44,216 bases of DNA from SAR86 cluster bacterium (GTDB lineage Bacteria > Pseudomonadota > Gammaproteobacteria > Magnimaribacterales > D2472): assembly GCA_029254395.1 (NCBI GenBank), contig JAQWXQ010000065.1, positions 1-44,216 of the forward strand, read 5' to 3'. The first letter of the stretch is position 1; every line of letters starts with the position of its first letter. Made by a program: the position numbers and the translations under genes. Positions 19,601 through 31,593 of the stretch are shown here, piece by piece. The notes beneath the pieces are model-generated. The model saw nothing but the letters and a program-made list of their open reading frames with translations. It had not been told where the DNA came from and did not search any database.

Positions 19601-20095
19601 CTAGTTAATCTCCGCCCTTCTATTTTTTGACCAACTTGCCTCGTTTGAACCTGTTACAAGAGGGTATTCTTCACCAAAGCTCTTCACAGTTACCCTATTA
19701 TCATTGATTCCATTTAACAATAAATAATCTTTTACAGCATCACCGCGTCTTTGGCCAAGGGCTAGATTATATTCACGAGTACCTCTCTCATCAGCATGAC
19801 CAGATACAGTGATAAGCATATCTGGGTTTTCATTCATTGCTCGCACAACACTTTTAAGAGTTTGTATTGACTTGGTAGAAAGGGTAAATTTATCGAAATC
19901 AAAATAAACTACCGCATTAGTAGTTATAGGTTTTTCGTCATATGAAACGACACTATCTTCTGCAACTGAAACTTCAACACTGCTTACAGTTGAATTGTAG
20001 ACAGATTCTTCTGTATTGTTTGTTGTGCTGCAAGATACTGCAAACATGAGGAATGAGACATAGAAAATATTTCTATTTTTAGATTGTATATACAT
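19601..20095 (-). CDS. pal: Peptidoglycan-associated lipoprotein Pal
   Basis: Lipobox VSCSTT, VYFDFDKFTL, VSGHADERGTREYNLALGQRRGDAVKDYL. Confidence 0.97.
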   Translation of the reverse strand: MYIQSKNRNIFYVSFLMFAVSCSTTNNTEESVYNSTVSSVEVSVAEDSVVSYDEKPITTNAVVYFDFDKFTLSTKSIQTLKSVVRAMNENPDMLITVSGHADERGTREYNLALGQRRGDAVKDYLLLNGINDNRVTVKSFGEEYPLVTGSNEASWSKNRRAEIN

Positions 20096-20113: not shown

Positions 20114-21388
20114 TTATCTTAAATACCCCGACCAAGATGGCTCCCTAACCTCTCCAGAACTTGATGGCAGTCTGAATTTAGCACCGCTGAGGGTAACACC
20201 AGCAAGAAGCCCAACCTTATCTTCTTTAATTGCATAGACTATCACATTACCGTTAGGAGAAATACTTGGAGATTCATCTAAGCGAGATTCGGTTAGAGGT
20301 CTTGAAAAATTCTCATTAAAGTATTTAAGAGCAATCTTGAACTCTCCTTCGTTTCTTTGAACAAACACAATACCCTCATTGCTTGGAAGGTAAGATGCTT
20401 TAGCGTTATAGTTTCCATCAAAGGTTAGCCTTTTTGGCTTTGTATTAAATTTTAATAAATCTATTTCATAAAGCTGAGGCGATCCTGATCTTCCGGATGT
20501 GAATAATATTTTTTTACCATCTGGTGACCATGATGATTCAGTATCTATGGAATAATGATTTGTTAAACGTGTTAGATTTTTATTCTCCAAATTAAGAATG
20601 TATATTTCTGCATTTCCATCTTGATATAAAGTGAGAGATAAAAACTTTCCATCTGGAGAGAATGCTGGTGAGCTGATCTGATATTTATTTTTTACAGCAA
20701 CCTCCCTACTTCCAGTGGCAATGTTTTGAATAAATACTTTTGCCAATCCTGTCTCAAATGAGACATATGCTATATCTTTAGAGTCAGGACTCCATGATGG
20801 AGAAATAATTGCGCTGTTACTTTTAAGCAAAGTCTGCTCATTCATTCCATCGGCATCAGCTAGCATCAATTTATAAACCTTTGCAGATCCCGCAAGACCT
20901 TCGCTAACATAAAGCATTTTTGTTGATGAGACTCCTTTTAAACCTGTTATCTCTTCATAAATACCGTCGCTCACATAGTGTGCTAACTGTCTGGTTTTGT
21001 TAGGTATACCATAAATTTTTGAAGATCTTATTTTTTTTTCTTTAACAGAATCGTAGATATCATATGAAACAGTGATATTCATTTCATCTTTACTATCGAT
21101 TATCCCTTTTAAAATATAATCAACACCAAGAAGTCTATAATTTTTATAATTTAATTCTTCTTGATATGTCTCTTCTGCCAGGAGCTCGTCAGAGCTTAGT
21201 ACTGAAAACTCACCTGTCCTTTGTAAGTCAGCTTTTATAATTGAACTGATTTCATTTGAAATCAAGGCCTGGCCATCAAAATCATGAATAGCAATTCTAT
21301 AGGGATTGTCAGAACTTTCTGTAATTTCAAGAACAAGCTCTGCATTTAAATTTAAGAAAACAAAGAATAGATATAGGATTTTTTTCAT
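20114..21388 (-). CDS. tolB: Tol-Pal system beta-propeller protein TolB
   Basis: Repeated SPSWSPDSKDIAYVSFE / SPAFSPDGKFLSL / SSWSPDGKKILFTSGRSGSPQLY propeller motifs. Confidence 0.97.
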   Translation of the reverse strand: MKKILYLFFVFLNLNAELVLEITESSDNPYRIAIHDFDGQALISNEISSIIKADLQRTGEFSVLSSDELLAEETYQEELNYKNYRLLGVDYILKGIIDSKDEMNITVSYDIYDSVKEKKIRSSKIYGIPNKTRQLAHYVSDGIYEEITGLKGVSSTKMLYVSEGLAGSAKVYKLMLADADGMNEQTLLKSNSAIISPSWSPDSKDIAYVSFETGLAKVFIQNIATGSREVAVKNKYQISSPAFSPDGKFLSLTLYQDGNAEIYILNLENKNLTRLTNHYSIDTESSWSPDGKKILFTSGRSGSPQLYEIDLLKFNTKPKRLTFDGNYNAKASYLPSNEGIVFVQRNEGEFKIALKYFNENFSRPLTESRLDESPSISPNGNVIVYAIKEDKVGLLAGVTLSGAKFRLPSSSGEVREPSWSGYLR

Positions 21389-22026
21389 GATGGGTTGAAA
21401 GTGAGCATTATATTTTTAAAATTTGACTGATACATTTTTGCATCCATTTTGCTAAAAAAATTAAAAGTTTCAACCCTCTTTACAGCCTTAATTGCTGAGT
21501 TATCGAACCTTATGTTGCCGCTACTTCTAAAAAGAGACACATTGATTATCCTTCCATTTTTATTTATCTGAATTCTAAGGTCGCAAACCAGGCCATCTTG
21601 AATATTTTTTGGTTTTAACCATGCGCTTTCAATAGTATCTATTATCATCAGACTAAATTTATCTGCATCATTAATTTTTTCGTTATTTAAGAAATTTTTT
21701 TCTTCGCTTATTAGCTTACTAAGCTCTGGAATTACATTTATAGCTGGCTCAAATTCTTTAAATTGATTGGTTTTAGGGGTTGGTATTTTTGAGGAAACAA
21801 TTTTTATTTCATTAAAGCTTTCTTGAGGTATAGGTTTTTCAATAGTTTTTTTCATTGGACTAATTTTTGCATCTTGCTCAAAAATTAAACTAACATCTAT
21901 TGGGTTATTTAGAACAGGTCTTGCTTTTTTTTCTGAATAGAAATAACCAACAAGAAAAAGTATCAGTGAAGCATGTATTAGAAAAGAGAATATTGAGGCT
22001 ATAGTGTAATTAGTATTAATTTGCAT
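21385..22026 (-). CDS. tolA: TolA-like protein, short
   Basis: N-terminal TM, C-terminal TolA/TonB-type domain (GLVCDLRIQINKNGRIINVSLFRSSGNIRFDNSAIKAV), between tolR and tolB. Confidence 0.85.
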   Translation of the reverse strand: MQINTNYTIASIFSFLIHASLILFLVGYFYSEKKARPVLNNPIDVSLIFEQDAKISPMKKTIEKPIPQESFNEIKIVSSKIPTPKTNQFKEFEPAINVIPELSKLISEEKNFLNNEKINDADKFSLMIIDTIESAWLKPKNIQDGLVCDLRIQINKNGRIINVSLFRSSGNIRFDNSAIKAVKRVETFNFFSKMDAKMYQSNFKNIMLTFNPS

Positions 22027-22438
22027 AGCCTGTTGTGACGATGCCTATTTTCTCTATTCCAACACTTTGAACAGCTGCCATAGCCTTAGCAACGCTATCA
22101 AAAGATACATTTTTATCACCTTTAAAGACAACTTCAATATCAGGATTTGCTGAAAAAATAATTAAAGACTTTCTTTTTAATTCATCCAGGTCTATGGGAA
22201 GTTGCTCTTCACCAATATTAATAAAGTATTCCCCGTTTTTATTAATAGACACTACAAGTGGTTCATTTTGAACAGACATTTTTGTGGTATCAGTTTGAGG
22301 CAAATTAACCTCGACACCTTGGATTAATAAAGGAGAGAGAACCATAAAAATAATCAATAAAACCAACATGACATCAATATATGGGACTACATTAATCTCA
22401 GCATTTAATTTTTTCTTTTTCCCTAATCTGTAAATCAT
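22016..22438 (-). CDS. tolR: TolR (ExbD family)
   Basis: INVVPYIDVMLVLLIIFMV, IQGVEVNLPQ. Confidence 0.96.
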   Translation of the reverse strand: MIYRLGKKKKLNAEINVVPYIDVMLVLLIIFMVLSPLLIQGVEVNLPQTDTTKMSVQNEPLVVSINKNGEYFINIGEEQLPIDLDELKRKSLIIFSANPDIEVVFKGDKNVSFDSVAKAMAAVQSVGIEKIGIVTTGYAN

Positions 22439-23109
22439 TTATTTTTCAAAGTTTGCTTATAAAAAATGCTAGCAAGTTCTTCAGAAAATATGACAGTTGA
22501 TTGTGAAATGCTTTCAAGCTCAGATGCAAATTTGTTGTACGCTAGGACTGCGGGTATGGCTGCAAATAAGCCCATTGCTGTTGCTACCAATGCCTCAGAT
22601 ATGCCAGGAGCAACTGCGTTTATTGTTGCTTGAGTAGCATCAGACAACCCCTGGAATGAGGTCATAATTCCCCAAACTGTTCCAAATAAACCAACATAAG
22701 GACTCACAGAACCAACATTAGCCAAAAATGATAGGTTTACATTCATCTGCTCCTCATCTGAGGCTATAGCGACTCTCATGGAGCGATTAATACCCTCTAA
22801 ATCTAATTCAGTTATCTCATTAGTTTTAGTAAGAGTATTAAATTCATCAAAAGCGCTTCTAAAAACATTCAAAGAGCCATAATTAATATTATTATCATTT
22901 GGTATTTCATTATAAAGTGAATGCAAATCTTTACCTGACCAGAATCTAGATAAAAAATCAGAGTTAATTTTTTTTATTTTTTTATAAAAATTATAGCGTT
23001 CAATTATAACTATCCATGTCAATATTGAAGTTAATAAAAGGGTTAACATGACTGATTTTACAACCGGTCCTGCCTCGAGAAATAAATTTAAAACAGAAAT
23101 TTCATTCAT
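22435..23109 (-). CDS. tolQ: TolQ (MotA/ExbB family)
   Basis: YVGLFGTVWGIMTSFQGL, APGISEALVATAMGLFAAIPAVLAYN. Confidence 0.96.
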   Translation of the reverse strand: MNEISVLNLFLEAGPVVKSVMLTLLLTSILTWIVIIERYNFYKKIKKINSDFLSRFWSGKDLHSLYNEIPNDNNINYGSLNVFRSAFDEFNTLTKTNEITELDLEGINRSMRVAIASDEEQMNVNLSFLANVGSVSPYVGLFGTVWGIMTSFQGLSDATQATINAVAPGISEALVATAMGLFAAIPAVLAYNKFASELESISQSTVIFSEELASIFYKQTLKNK

Positions 23110-23118
23110 AATAATTTT

Positions 23119-23529
23119 TTAACCAAAAAGTAATAATAAATCATTGTGAAACGGTTTTGGTTTATTTGTTTCCGAATTGATCAGACAAACTTCAACCTCT
23201 GCAGAGCAAAGAATTTTGTTTGAGTTGCTTTCTTTTGCTGTTTGTGAAAATGTTAATCTAGCATTTGAGTTTTTGCGAACCAATGAAGAAATGGTCAATG
23301 CATCTTCAATTCTTGCTGGTGAAATAAAATTAATTTCCATCCTACGAACCACAAATACTAATTGTTGATTTAGCAACTTTTCCTGTGAGATGCCATTGTC
23401 TATGAGGAATTCCGTTCTAGATCTCTCAAAAAATTTTAAATAGTTTGCATGATATACAAAACCCTGAAAGTCAGTATCTTCACAGTAAACTTTTAGGTAT
23501 AAATCCTTAGACTTGATATGTTTGCTCAT
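23119..23529 (-). CDS. ybgC: Tol-Pal associated acyl-CoA thioesterase YbgC
   Basis: YCEDTDFQGFVYHANYLKFFERSRTEFL hot-dog motif. Confidence 0.95.
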   Translation of the reverse strand: MSKHIKSKDLYLKVYCEDTDFQGFVYHANYLKFFERSRTEFLIDNGISQEKLLNQQLVFVVRRMEINFISPARIEDALTISSLVRKNSNARLTFSQTAKESNSNKILCSAEVEVCLINSETNKPKPFHNDLLLLFG

Positions 23530-23932
23530 GAAGCTCTATATCTTTTTGAAAAAGCTCTAACAAAATTTGTATAAAATCTGGCCAGAGTAAGTCAACGGTT
23601 ATTAAATGATTTTGAATATTTGGATTGATTGTTGATGCAAGTACTCTTACTTTTATAGGTCTTCTATTAAATTTGTAGATGAGTGCAGGTATTAGATCCT
23701 GTCCATCTGAAGCTCTAATTACTTGATCCCACCAATCCTGAGGTGGCTCTCCGCCGTCACCATATCTCTTACATTCTAGGCACCATCTTCCAAGTCTGAG
23801 ATCGGGGAGTTCTTTTGTTCTGGTTTGCTCTAATATTCTTTTAACAGGATTTGTTAAATTTAGCTCTTGGACTAATAAATTACCTATCTCTCTTTCAAAA
23901 TTTGCACCTTTAGCTCTTGAGTTAACTGGCAA
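23507..23932 (-). CDS. Putative PD-(D/E)XK nuclease, phage-type Holliday-junction-resolvase-like
   Basis: NSRAKGANFEREIGNLL then ELPDLRLGRWCLECKRYGDGGEPPQDWWDQVIRA matches E...PD...ExK architecture; lies between yebC and ybgC. Confidence 0.7.
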   Translation of the reverse strand: MPVNSRAKGANFEREIGNLLVQELNLTNPVKRILEQTRTKELPDLRLGRWCLECKRYGDGGEPPQDWWDQVIRASDGQDLIPALIYKFNRRPIKVRVLASTINPNIQNHLITVDLLWPDFIQILLELFQKDIELHEQTYQV

Positions 23933-23934
23933 AA

Positions 23935-24672
23935 TTATTCTCCTGGTTCAAAATTGTCAGGGAATTGAGCATTGGTATGGACTTCTTGCACATCATCTAG
24001 ATCATCCATGAAATCCATAATTTTTAAGATTTTTTCAGCCATTTCTTGATCTACCTCTATAAGAGTATCTGCTCGAAGTGTTGCTTCAGCATTTGATATT
24101 TCAATATCTTTAGATTTTAAAATATCATTTATATTGCTTAAATCGTTATGGGGGGTAATTACTTCAAAATAATCACCTTCATCAACTAAATCTTCTGCGC
24201 CTGCATCCAAAGCAATATCCATCAAATCATCTTCGGTAATTCCCTTGGCAACATGAATGATTCCAAGCTTATTAAATAAATAAGCTACAGAGCCATCGGT
24301 ACCAAGATTTCCACCAAATTTAGAAAAAGCATGTCTAACATCGGAGACAGTCCTGTTTCGATTGTCTGTCATCGTCTCCACAAGAATAGCTACGCCTCCA
24401 GGGCCGTAACCTTCAAATACTATTTCCTCTAAACTTCCTGTCTCACCAGTACCTGAACCTTTTTGAATTGCCCTTTTTATTGTGTCTTTTGGCATATTTG
24501 ATTGGTTGGCTTTTTCTAGTGCAAGCCGCAATCTTGGATTATCTTCAGGGTCAGGGCCGCCTTTAGCTGCTACCGTTATTTCTCTTATAACTTTAGTCCA
24601 TACTTTGGCTCTAGAAGCATCTTGTCTTGCTTTGCGATGTTTTATATTTGCCCATTTAGAATGTCCTGCCAT
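23935..24672 (-). CDS. yebC: YebC/TACO1 family protein
   Basis: MAGHSKWANIKHRKARQDASRAKVWTKVIREI, YGPGGVAILVETMTDNRNRT. Confidence 0.97.
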   Translation of the reverse strand: MAGHSKWANIKHRKARQDASRAKVWTKVIREITVAAKGGPDPEDNPRLRLALEKANQSNMPKDTIKRAIQKGSGTGETGSLEEIVFEGYGPGGVAILVETMTDNRNRTVSDVRHAFSKFGGNLGTDGSVAYLFNKLGIIHVAKGITEDDLMDIALDAGAEDLVDEGDYFEVITPHNDLSNINDILKSKDIEISNAEATLRADTLIEVDQEMAEKILKIMDFMDDLDDVQEVHTNAQFPDNFEPGE

Positions 24673-26442
24673 TTAAACCTCTTCTATTACTGTAGATTGT
24701 ATCTTAAGCTCATCTAATTGAGCATTATCAACTTTGCTAGGTGCTTCTGTAAGCAGGCATGTTGCACTCTGTGTCTTAGGAAATGCAATCACATCTCTTA
24801 TATTTGATGTATTAGTTATAAGCATTACAAGCCTATCTAATCCAAAGGCAATGCCTCCATGAGGCGGGCAACCGGAAGACAAAGCATTTAGCAAAAATCC
24901 GAATTTATTATTGGCCTCTTCCTTGGTTATCTTTAATATATCAAAAACTGCTTTTTGCATATCTTCTTGATAAATTCGCAAGGATCCTCCTCCAACCTCA
25001 TAACCATTTAAAACAATATCGTATGCATACGCTATTGCATCTTCAGGCCGATCAAGTAACTCAACTGCTGAACATTTTGGCAAGGTAAATGGGTGATGAA
25101 GAGAAGTTAGGCTTCCTTGGCTGTTCCTTTCAAACATAGGAAAATTAACAACCCAACATGGAGCCCATTCAGAAGAATATAAATTCAGATCTTCTCCTAA
25201 TTTTTTAATTAGGCTACTCATAGATAAATTGACGACATTTTTAGGTCCAGCTCCAAAAAATACTAAATCGCCCTTCTCAAGACCAAGATTACTAATTATT
25301 CTTTCAACTGTTTGTTTATTTAAAAATTTAAGAATTGGAGACTGGAGACCATTTTCGCTACCATCGAGCTCATTAACCTTGATATATGCAAGACCCTTGG
25401 CCCCTAGTTTTGAAACATACTTTGTATATTCATCAATTTTTCCTCTACTAAGACTATTTCCACCAGGAATTTTTAAAGCAACTACTCGAGACTTCTCGTC
25501 CTGAGCTGGGCTTGAAAATACTTTAAACTCCTCGTCCATCACCAATTCAGAGATTTCTACCAGATGCAAAGGTATTCTTAAGTCTGGTTTATCACATCCA
25601 TATTTTTCTATCGAATCGTGCCAATCAATAACAGGAAATTTATCTAGTTTATGGTTGCAAAATTTTTCAACCAGCTCCCTGACCATTCCTTCAGCTAAAT
25701 CGATAATATAGTCCTGATCAATAAATGATGCCTCTATGTCTATCTGAGTAAATTCAGGCTGCCTATCTGCCCTTAAATCTTCATCTCTAAAACACCTGGC
25801 TACCTGGTAATACTTATCAAGCCCTCCCATCATTAGCATTTGCTTAAAAAGTTGAGGTGATTGAGGTAAAGCAAAGAAATTTCCAGGCTGAACTCTACTA
25901 GGAAGAATATAATCCCTTGCGCCTTCAGGAGTTGCCCTCGTTAAAATAGGTGTTTCAATCTCATTGAAATCTTTATCATCTAAATAATTTCTGATAGTAG
26001 ATGATATCTTCGATCTTGTAACGATCCTTTGATTCATTTCAGGTCTTCTTAAATCAAGAACTCTATTTTTCAATCTAACATCCTCGTTAACCTCTTGGTA
26101 ATCATCTAGAGGGAATACCGGAGTAACCGCTTTACTTAAAATTTTTATATGTTTAGCCTCTAACTCTATCTCACCAGTAACCATATTTGCATTAGATGTT
26201 CCTTCAAGTCTTTTATTTACATTTCCACTTATGGAAACTACAAACTCATTTCTTAATGTCTCAGCAATCGCAAAAGATTCTTTAGAATCAGGATTAAATA
26301 CGACTTGGCAAATACCTTTGATATCCCTTAGATCTAAAAAAATAACACCCCCATGATCTCTTCGCTTATGAACCCAGCCGCAAAGTGTTACTTCTTGTTC
26401 TAAATTTTTAGTAGTTATTTCACCACAATAATGTGATCTCAT
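24673..26442 (-). CDS. aspS: Aspartyl-tRNA synthetase
   Basis: [65 protein letters not shown]. Confidence 0.98.
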
Positions 26443-26796: not shown

Positions 26797-28071
26797 ATGT
26801 TATTTTCAAAATTACTATTGCCGACATTAAAAGAGGCTCCTCAGGAAGCTGAAATTGTTAGTCATAAGCTAATGCTTAGGGCTGGGATGATAAGAAAAGT
26901 TGCCTCTGGAGTCTACACTTGGCTGCCATTAGGCTTAAAAGTTCTAAGAAAAGTCGAGGCAATTGTAAGAACTGAAATGAATAATGCTGGAGCCCAAGAG
27001 GTTTTAATGCCAATGGTTCAGCCAAAAGAACTATGGAATGAGACTGAAAGATGGGAAAAAATGGGGAAAGAACTTCTTCGATTTCAAGATAGGCATGATA
27101 GAGATTTTTGTTTAGGCCCAACACATGAAGAGGTAATAACTGACCTAATCAGAAGTAATGTGAAAAGCTACAAAGAATTACCAATTAATGCATATCAAAT
27201 ACAGACAAAATTTAGAGATGAAATTAGACCCAGATACGGTGTGATGAGAAGCAGGGAGTTTCTTATGAAAGATGCTTACAGCTTTAGTGTAAATGAAGAG
27301 TGTTTAGATAATAGCTACATAAATATGAGAAATACATATAAAAAAATTCTCCAAAATATCGGGTTAGAATTCAAAGTAGTAAAAGCTGATTCTGGAGCAA
27401 TAGGTGGAGATGCTTCCGAAGAATTCCATGTATTAGCTGAGAATGGTGAGGATACTATTGCTGTAAGTACTGGCTCTGAATTTGCCATTAATACAGAGCT
27501 TTTATTAGAAGAAGGTGAGGATATTAAATCTCTTGAAGGAGAAGACTCTCCTGACGGTAATGGGGTTATTCAAATAAAAAAAGGTATTGAGGTTGGTCAT
27601 ATTTTTAAACTTGGTCAAGTCTACTCGGAAAGTATGGGTGCTAATGTACAAACTAAAGAAGGAAGGCCAGCAACCCTTCACATGGGCTGCTATGGCATTG
27701 GTATCTCAAGAATAGTTGCAGCAGCTATAGAGCAAAATAATGATGAAAGGGGTATTGTCTGGCCACCAACGATTGCACCATTTGATGTAAACATTATCGC
27801 TATTGGCTTTGAGAAAGATGAAAAAATCGCTATGGCAGCAACAAAGCTTTACGAAAGTCTTTCACACCAAGGCTATGATGTAATTTTAGACGATAGAAAA
27901 ACTGGATTTGGGGCAAAAATTAAAGACTCTGAATTGATTGGAATTCCTATGAATATAATAATTGGTAAATCATTTGTAGAAAATGATGAAATAGAATTAC
28001 GAACAAGAGATGGTCAAATTTCTGTAGCCAAGATTGATGACTTGAAAATCATTTTTAACCACTACAAATAA
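26797..28071 (+). CDS. proS: Prolyl-tRNA synthetase, compact form lacking the editing insertion
   Basis: Class II motifs ([51 protein letters not shown]); 424 aa. Confidence 0.96.
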
Positions 28072-30573: not shown

Positions 30574-31593
30574 TTATTTTGTATCTTTAGATTTTGCCTT
30601 TGATGCTATATAAGATGATCTTATTTCGCTAATAAGCTCGTCTCTAATTTTTGTATTTTCTTTAAGATATATGCTTGCTTTAACTTTGCCTTGCCCAATA
30701 GTCTCTCCATTTAACTTATAAAAGGCACCTGACTTATCTACTAAACCGAGCTTATGACCAAAATCAAGTATTTCTCCTTCTTGATTAATACCTAAGCCAT
30801 ACATTATTTGAAACTCAGCCTGTTTAAATGGAGGTGAAACTTTATTTTTTACGACTTTTACCCTAGTTTCATTACCCATAACCTCATCACCTTCTTTTAC
30901 TGATCCTATCCTTCTTATATCTAGACGAACAGACGAGTAAAATTTGAGAGCATTTCCACCAGTAGTAGTTTCTGGACTTCCAAACATCACACCAATTTTC
31001 ATTCTAATCTGGTTAATAAATACCACCGTGGCTCCAGATCTTTGTATGTTGCCGGTTATCTTTCTTAGAGCCTGAGACATTAATCTGGCTTGAAGTCCAA
31101 CGTGATGATCACCCATCTCTCCCTCTATTTCTGCTCTTGGAACTAAGGCTGCTACAGAGTCGATTATGACTAAGTCAACACTTTTAGATTTTACTAACAT
31201 GTCAGCAACTTCTAGCGCTTGTTCACCGGTATCTGGTTGTGATAACAACAGCTCATCCACATTGACTCCAAGTTTTTCAGCATATTGCGGATCTAAAGCA
31301 TGTTCTGCATCAATAAATGCACAAGTACCACCTGCTTTCTGACACTGAGCTATTATTTGAAGTGTTAAAGTTGTTTTACCAGAAGATTCTGGTCCGTATA
31401 TTTCAGTAACTCTTCCTTTTGGAATCCCGCCAATGCCAAGGGCAATGTCTAAACCTAATGATCCTGTTGAGATTGATGGTATATCTACAAGCTCTTTATC
31501 GCCCATCCTCATAACAGTTCCTTTCCCAAACTGACTGTCTATGTCAGCCAAAGTTTCCTTTAATGATTTTTTTGTGTCTTTTAATTTAGCCAT
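30574..31593 (-). CDS. recA: Recombinase RecA
   Basis: [15 protein letters not shown] Walker [38 protein letters not shown]. Confidence 0.99.

Follow-up and report, generated by a model that had tools for sequence, protein, structure and literature searches.

A phage-type, Hjc-like nuclease gene in the ruvCAB position of SAR86 bacteria, a putative replacement for RuvABC

The window analysed here is a 44,216-nucleotide stretch of contig JAQWXQ010000065.1 (assembly GCA_029254395.1) from a SAR86 cluster bacterium. It contains the gene order aspS-yebC-X-ybgC-tolQ-tolR-tolA-tolB-pal, in which X is the open reading frame (ORF) at 23507-23932. In the ORF list of the window, X lies on the minus strand, has a TTG start and encodes 141 amino acids. 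Its start lies 2 nt beyond the yebC stop codon, and its 3' end overlaps the start of ybgC by 23 nt. The ORF, the gene order and the overlap had been reported in a reading made from the sequence only, and all were found as described. The features are as follows.

19601..20095, minus strand: pal, from the ORF list; pal is matched in the f38 locus as well
20114..21388, minus strand: tolB, from the ORF list and comparison of loci
21385..22026, minus strand: tolA, from the ORF list and comparison of loci
22016..22438, minus strand: tolR, from the ORF list and comparison of loci
22435..23109, minus strand: tolQ, from the ORF list and comparison of loci
23119..23529, minus strand: ybgC, acyl-CoA thioesterase-like, named from gene order; neighbour conserved in relatives
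23507..23932, minus strand: X, putative Holliday junction resolvase, phage-type PD-(D/E)XK (PDDEXK_15, Hjc-like), from the ORF list, families, conservation, synteny, structure and catalytic census
23935..24672, minus strand: yebC, upstream flank of the ruv slot, adjoining ruvC in 20/20 ruvC-bearing loci
24673..26442, minus strand: aspS, conserved neighbour upstream, from the ORF list and comparison of loci
30574..31593, minus strand: recA, intact, 339 aa

The window also holds a prolyl-tRNA synthetase gene (26797-28071, plus strand) whose 424-aa product has the class II core and anticodon domains and no separate editing-domain match; the longer form common in bacteria differs from it in the editing domain.

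Across diverse gammaproteobacteria, ruvC adjoins yebC in every one of the 20 ruvC-bearing loci sampled, and in most of these it is followed by ruvA, ruvB and then ybgC or tolQ. The locus is thus the place where ruv genes are expected, as had been supposed from gene order. The window's genome (1.15 Mb, 145 contigs, 90.9% complete) and 60 relatives make up our sample of the SAR86 order, 61 genomes in 4 families and 18 genera; the same four-family, 18-genus structure has been reported for SAR86 (PMC11582366). RuvC (PF02075) was found in none of the 61 genomes, 34 of which are at least 90% complete, and a loose first-pass search often returned no RuvC candidate at all in them. The RuvC model matches 262 of 276 genomes of the class, very reduced genomes among them. 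RuvA and RuvB gave nothing over the cut-off in 12 genomes of the order, several of them single-contig, and RuvC, RuvA and RuvB are all missing from the single-contig genomes. The RuvB model, with its cut-off of 299 bits, scored at most 28.8, in AAA+ frames; its matches of 20-31 bits were taken for AAA+ paralogues and discarded because of their partial model coverage, long frames and scores far under the cut-off. The best RuvA-model score was 21 against a cut-off of 85, and matches of about 20 bits were rejected because they covered only a short helix-hairpin-helix stretch. The claimed absence of ruvA, ruvB and ruvC therefore extends beyond the locus: profile models found no intact ruvABC elsewhere in the window's genome, and RuvC was not found anywhere in it.

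RecA is intact wherever it was tested. Since strand exchange is kept, Holliday junctions should still form. RecG, which the sequence-only reading had put forward as a possible stand-in for RuvAB, is missing from the matches in the window's genome and in three of four further members of its family tested, and it was rejected as the RuvABC substitute in the window's genome. Only Mfd-level matches to RecG were obtained in G000, G003, G005 and G006, all of the window's own family; RecG is kept in G008 of that family and in the three other SAR86 families. A large part of the main SAR86 family thus appears to have lost RecG. YqgF/RuvX, also named in the earlier reading as a gene to look for, was found in 15 of 16 genomes tested, including every SAR86 genome among them.

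The product of X matches the Pfam family PDDEXK_15 (PF24608) at 39.3 bits, over the curated cut-off of 27, and phrog_244 with E=2.4e-12; its resemblance to phage-type nucleases, first noticed from the motifs NSRAKGANFEREIG and ELPDLRLGRWCLECKRYG, both of which are present, is thus above chance. The core fold and the conserved E / D / ExK active site (E13, D44, E53 and K55) place the protein in the PD-(D/E)XK superfamily. An AlphaFold2 model (pLDDT 90.1, pTM 0.86) has helices at residues 4-23 and 64-73 and strands at 44-46, 49-56 and 80-87. The top 16 PDB matches of this model in Foldseek were all archaeal Hjc/ST1444 Holliday junction resolvases, with probabilities mostly of 0.8-1.0 and with modest scores (E from 2.3e-3, TM-scores of 0.4-0.5). 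The predicted fold is nearest to Hjc among solved structures; an unrelated, non-junction nuclease family might have emerged from this search, and junction resolvases emerged instead.

At the level of sequence, phmmer and profile searches of the SAR86-type protein against PDB sequences gave chance matches only, and no significant match to Hjc models or chains was found in Pfam, PDB or NCBIfam. The NCBIfam search gave no useful match of any kind, and PADLOC gave no defence match. The link of the SAR86 type to Hjc leans partly on the f38 type described below, to which it is homologous by profile comparison. The protein has no match to RuvC PF02075, and its PD-(D/E)XK fold is not the RNase H-like fold of RuvC. 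RecU was not matched in the Pfam scan, nor was RusA to E=10; the label "RusA-like" attached to phrog_244 appears to be loose.

The SAR86-type protein is present in 58 of the 61 genomes and in all 18 genera of the order. Its absence from the other three is due to assembly gaps: the contig stops 29 bp past yebC in G021 and inside yebC in G022, and yebC is absent along with the protein in G030. When the locus was compared across related genomes, the ORF was kept in the ruv slot in all SAR86 loci examined, every one of them syntenic (yebC-X-ybgC/tolQ). The uncultured SAR86 cluster bacterium AG-325-A20 has the order yebC-X-ybgC-tolQ, and one family, f4, is without ybgC and has yebC-X-tolQ. Its loci L053, L056, L059 and L060 have no ybgC after the resolvase gene, and the stretch fetched for L056 has no tol genes downstream. 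All 36 non-redundant chromosomal copies from SAR86 have E13, D44, E53 and K55 without exception, as do 6 copies from f38. Comparison of X with the copy of a congener gave dN 0.035 and dS 0.75 (dN/dS about 0.05); estimated in this way from substitution rates, the SAR86-type gene is shown to be under purifying selection.

The nearest relatives of the SAR86 type in annotated phages are recombination-module proteins of marine and other phages, at 35-40% identity. Copies of the SAR86 type, with identities of up to 61%, also occur on contigs of marine viruses, where their neighbours are genes for phage structure and lysis and neither yebC nor ybgC. Two such contigs, L119 (5980-6420) and L122 (5998-6417), have SAR86-type resolvases at 52-61% identity which were placed within the SAR86 chromosomal clade with a support of 82. 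This placement suggests that the gene moved back into SAR86 viruses. A second, phage-like PDDEXK_15 copy was observed in the SAR86 genome G013 (L066, 4017-4436), beside genes for an exonuclease-like protein, an SSB-like protein and a primase/helicase; its contig is possibly a SAR86 prophage or virus contig.

The recombination modules of the Roseobacter phages CRP-811 (L078) and CRP-823 (L079) are nearly the same, with 98.9% identity in the exonuclease-like protein, 96.6% in SSB and 90.3% in the helicase. At one position CRP-811 has the SAR86 type and CRP-823 the f38 type, and the modules otherwise differ only by an extra small wHTH gene. The two types therefore look interchangeable, and they appear to have been swapped in the chromosomal ruv slot as they were in the phage module.

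The second chromosomal type comes from family f38. Its genomes G094 and G310 (1.1 Mb, 97-98% complete) have PDDEXK_15 and none of RuvC, RuvA and RuvB. The f38 locus reads aspS-nudB-yebC-X-ybgC-tolQ, so that gene X is in the same slot as the SAR86 resolvase gene, and the f38-type gene was in the ruv slot in all eight named marine gammaproteobacterial genomes in which it was found. Its product, of 104 aa, scores 37.2 bits with PDDEXK_15 and 19.9 bits with the Hjc Pfam model, just below the cut-off of 21.1. All six of its PDB sequence matches are junction resolvases, the best being the Hjc of Tth15-6 (7bgs, E=8.6e-5), and the top 14 fold matches of its model are Hjc. The f38-type protein is clearly Hjc-like. 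Profile comparison found the SAR86 and f38 types homologous with a probability of 96.4% (E=1.3e-9), and each of the two belongs to a phage clade of its own. A tree built from three proteins joins f38 to G184, which bears ruvC (95% UFBoot), apart from SAR86, and so favours two captures; this result is provisional because of the long branches and AT-rich composition of the sequences. The replacement by a phage resolvase in the f38 lineage was probably independent of the SAR86 event.

The gammaproteobacterium G184 (1.1 Mb) has kept ruvC next to yebC and has no RuvA or RuvB over the cut-off. At its locus (L117, 4918-5415 and downstream), queE/queC-like genes lie where ruvAB would be expected. Given its grouping with the f38 lineage, G184 may show an intermediate stage, with loss of the motor preceding replacement of the resolvase.

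Over the whole class, PF24608 occurs in 6 of 14 genomes lacking RuvC and in 5 of 262 bearing it. A chance association was examined by Fisher test and rejected (p=2e-6; p=0.015 once each RuvC-lacking lineage was collapsed to one). Of the five copies found in genomes with RuvC, none is closer than about 1 kb to yebC or ybgC. Several RuvC-lacking genomes of the class are also without PDDEXK_15. Since most of these lack yebC as well, the locus may be unassembled or lost in them. In G122 yebC is present, the slot is empty, and RuvC and PDDEXK_15 are both absent.

We conclude that, before the SAR86 families split, a phage Hjc-like resolvase was very probably captured at the ruvCAB site and took the place of RuvABC. 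A phage-derived PD-(D/E)XK resolvase in the place of ruvCAB, with RuvAB lost, had been suggested by the sequence-only reading, and four lines of evidence now support it: RuvC is missing from the whole order, X has become fixed where ruvCAB would lie, its fold comes closest to that of Hjc, and in f38 another Hjc-like phage gene occupies this position.

Other explanations have to be considered. RuvC, RuvA and RuvB could be present in SAR86 and too divergent for the models, the new gene being an addition, since SAR86 proteins are AT-rich and divergent and many of the genomes are drafts. However, the disparity between 262 of 276 class genomes and none of 61 order members, the occupation of the ruv slot and the absence of all three genes from single-contig genomes as well make this scarcely credible. 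It is less far-fetched, though still improbable, that the nuclease has another role, such as anti-phage restriction, superinfection control or DNA processing, and that YqgF/RuvX or another enzyme resolves junctions. YqgF is in all SAR86 genomes tested, the PD-(D/E)XK fold is functionally promiscuous and includes restriction and other nucleases, and junction cleavage by the SAR86 protein is something we infer. Weighing against a different role are the lack of any PADLOC defence match, the fixation of the gene in the ruv slot throughout the order, with an active site that does not vary, and the case of f38, which is also without RuvC and fills the slot with a different, more clearly Hjc-like protein. 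YqgF, moreover, is normally found alongside RuvC or RecU, and a demonstrated resolvase activity was noted as lacking for it (PMC1193525).

The number of captures is a separate matter. If RuvABC had been replaced only once, in an ancient ancestor shared by SAR86 and f38, and the phage types swapped later, this would fit the identical slot in both lineages and the visible exchange of both types at one locus in phages. Both are low-GC marine lineages, for which deep placement is difficult. The tree that joins f38 to the ruvC-bearing G184 and not to SAR86, together with the separate phage clades of the two chromosomal types, points away from a single event, which we consider possible though rather unlikely. 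We lean towards the interpretation that different Hjc-like resolvases of phages took over from RuvABC in situ on at least two occasions. In the main SAR86 family this would have left cells with RecA and without RuvAB or RecG, in which a lone resolvase processes junctions and no motor dedicated to branch migration was found.

RusA, a resolvase of a cryptic prophage of E. coli, can replace RuvABC without RuvAB. The SAR86 protein resembles it as a phage resolvase able to replace RuvABC without RuvAB, if our reading is correct, whereas the fold of RusA is unrelated and RusA is not known to be fixed as a sole resolvase. To archaeal Hjc (Archaeoglobus, Pyrococcus and Sulfolobus) the resemblance is in structure, Hjc being the nearest solved fold for the models of both the SAR86 and f38 types; unlike it, these proteins are under the Pfam and NCBIfam Hjc cut-offs or give no match to the models, and they have bacterial hosts and phage ancestry. 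Hjc_15-6 of Thermus phage Tth15-6 (PDB 7bgs/7bnx) is an archaeal-like phage resolvase that cleaves junctions in vitro (PMC8805305). The SAR86 protein shares with it the PD-(D/E)XK fold, the three-part catalytic motif E-xD-ExK, small size and origin as a phage recombination gene, and the f38 relative resembles it in sequence. In contrast to Hjc_15-6, the SAR86 gene is fixed in the chromosome as part of a housekeeping operon, and its product has an additional C-terminal strand and helices and no significant sequence match to Hjc_15-6. RecU of the Firmicutes and Mollicutes is likewise a non-orthologous PD-(D/E)XK resolvase used instead of RuvC (PMC1193525). RecU acts with RuvAB and adjoins ruvAB only rarely, in 2 genomes of that survey (PMC1193525), whereas in SAR86 RuvAB is also lost and the newcomer occupies the ruv position.

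Phage resolvases cleave by junction shape without a sequence requirement like that of RuvC, which is the basis for supposing RuvAB dispensable. The SAR86 protein would be a small, Mg2+-dependent Holliday-junction resolvase of the PDDEXK_15/phrog_244 clade, probably dimeric. In vivo, it would act on four-way junctions produced by RecA, reading their shape and nicking them in pairs by means of E13, D44, E53 and K55. Free of the sequence consensus that binds RuvC, it would have no need of RuvAB to move a cleavable sequence to the crossover. Such independence would explain why RuvA and RuvB were lost along with RuvC, and also why a later loss of RecG was possible in most of the window's family.

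In the library searched, we found no paper connecting SAR86 to ruvC or Holliday junctions. RuvAB and RuvC (or RecU) are regarded as core bacterial genes. In a survey of 117 genomes, just two RecA-positive genomes were without RuvAB, and both had RecG (PMC1193525). With the parallel occupation of the slot and the swap between near-isogenic phages, the functional equivalence of the two types is directly testable, and strain HIMB1674 is a cultured SAR86 with a closed genome. The order-wide exchange of RuvABC for one phage gene, with its apparent parallel in f38, would mean that RuvABC can be replaced as a whole, and the SAR86 replacement would then be a natural test of the need for branch migration.
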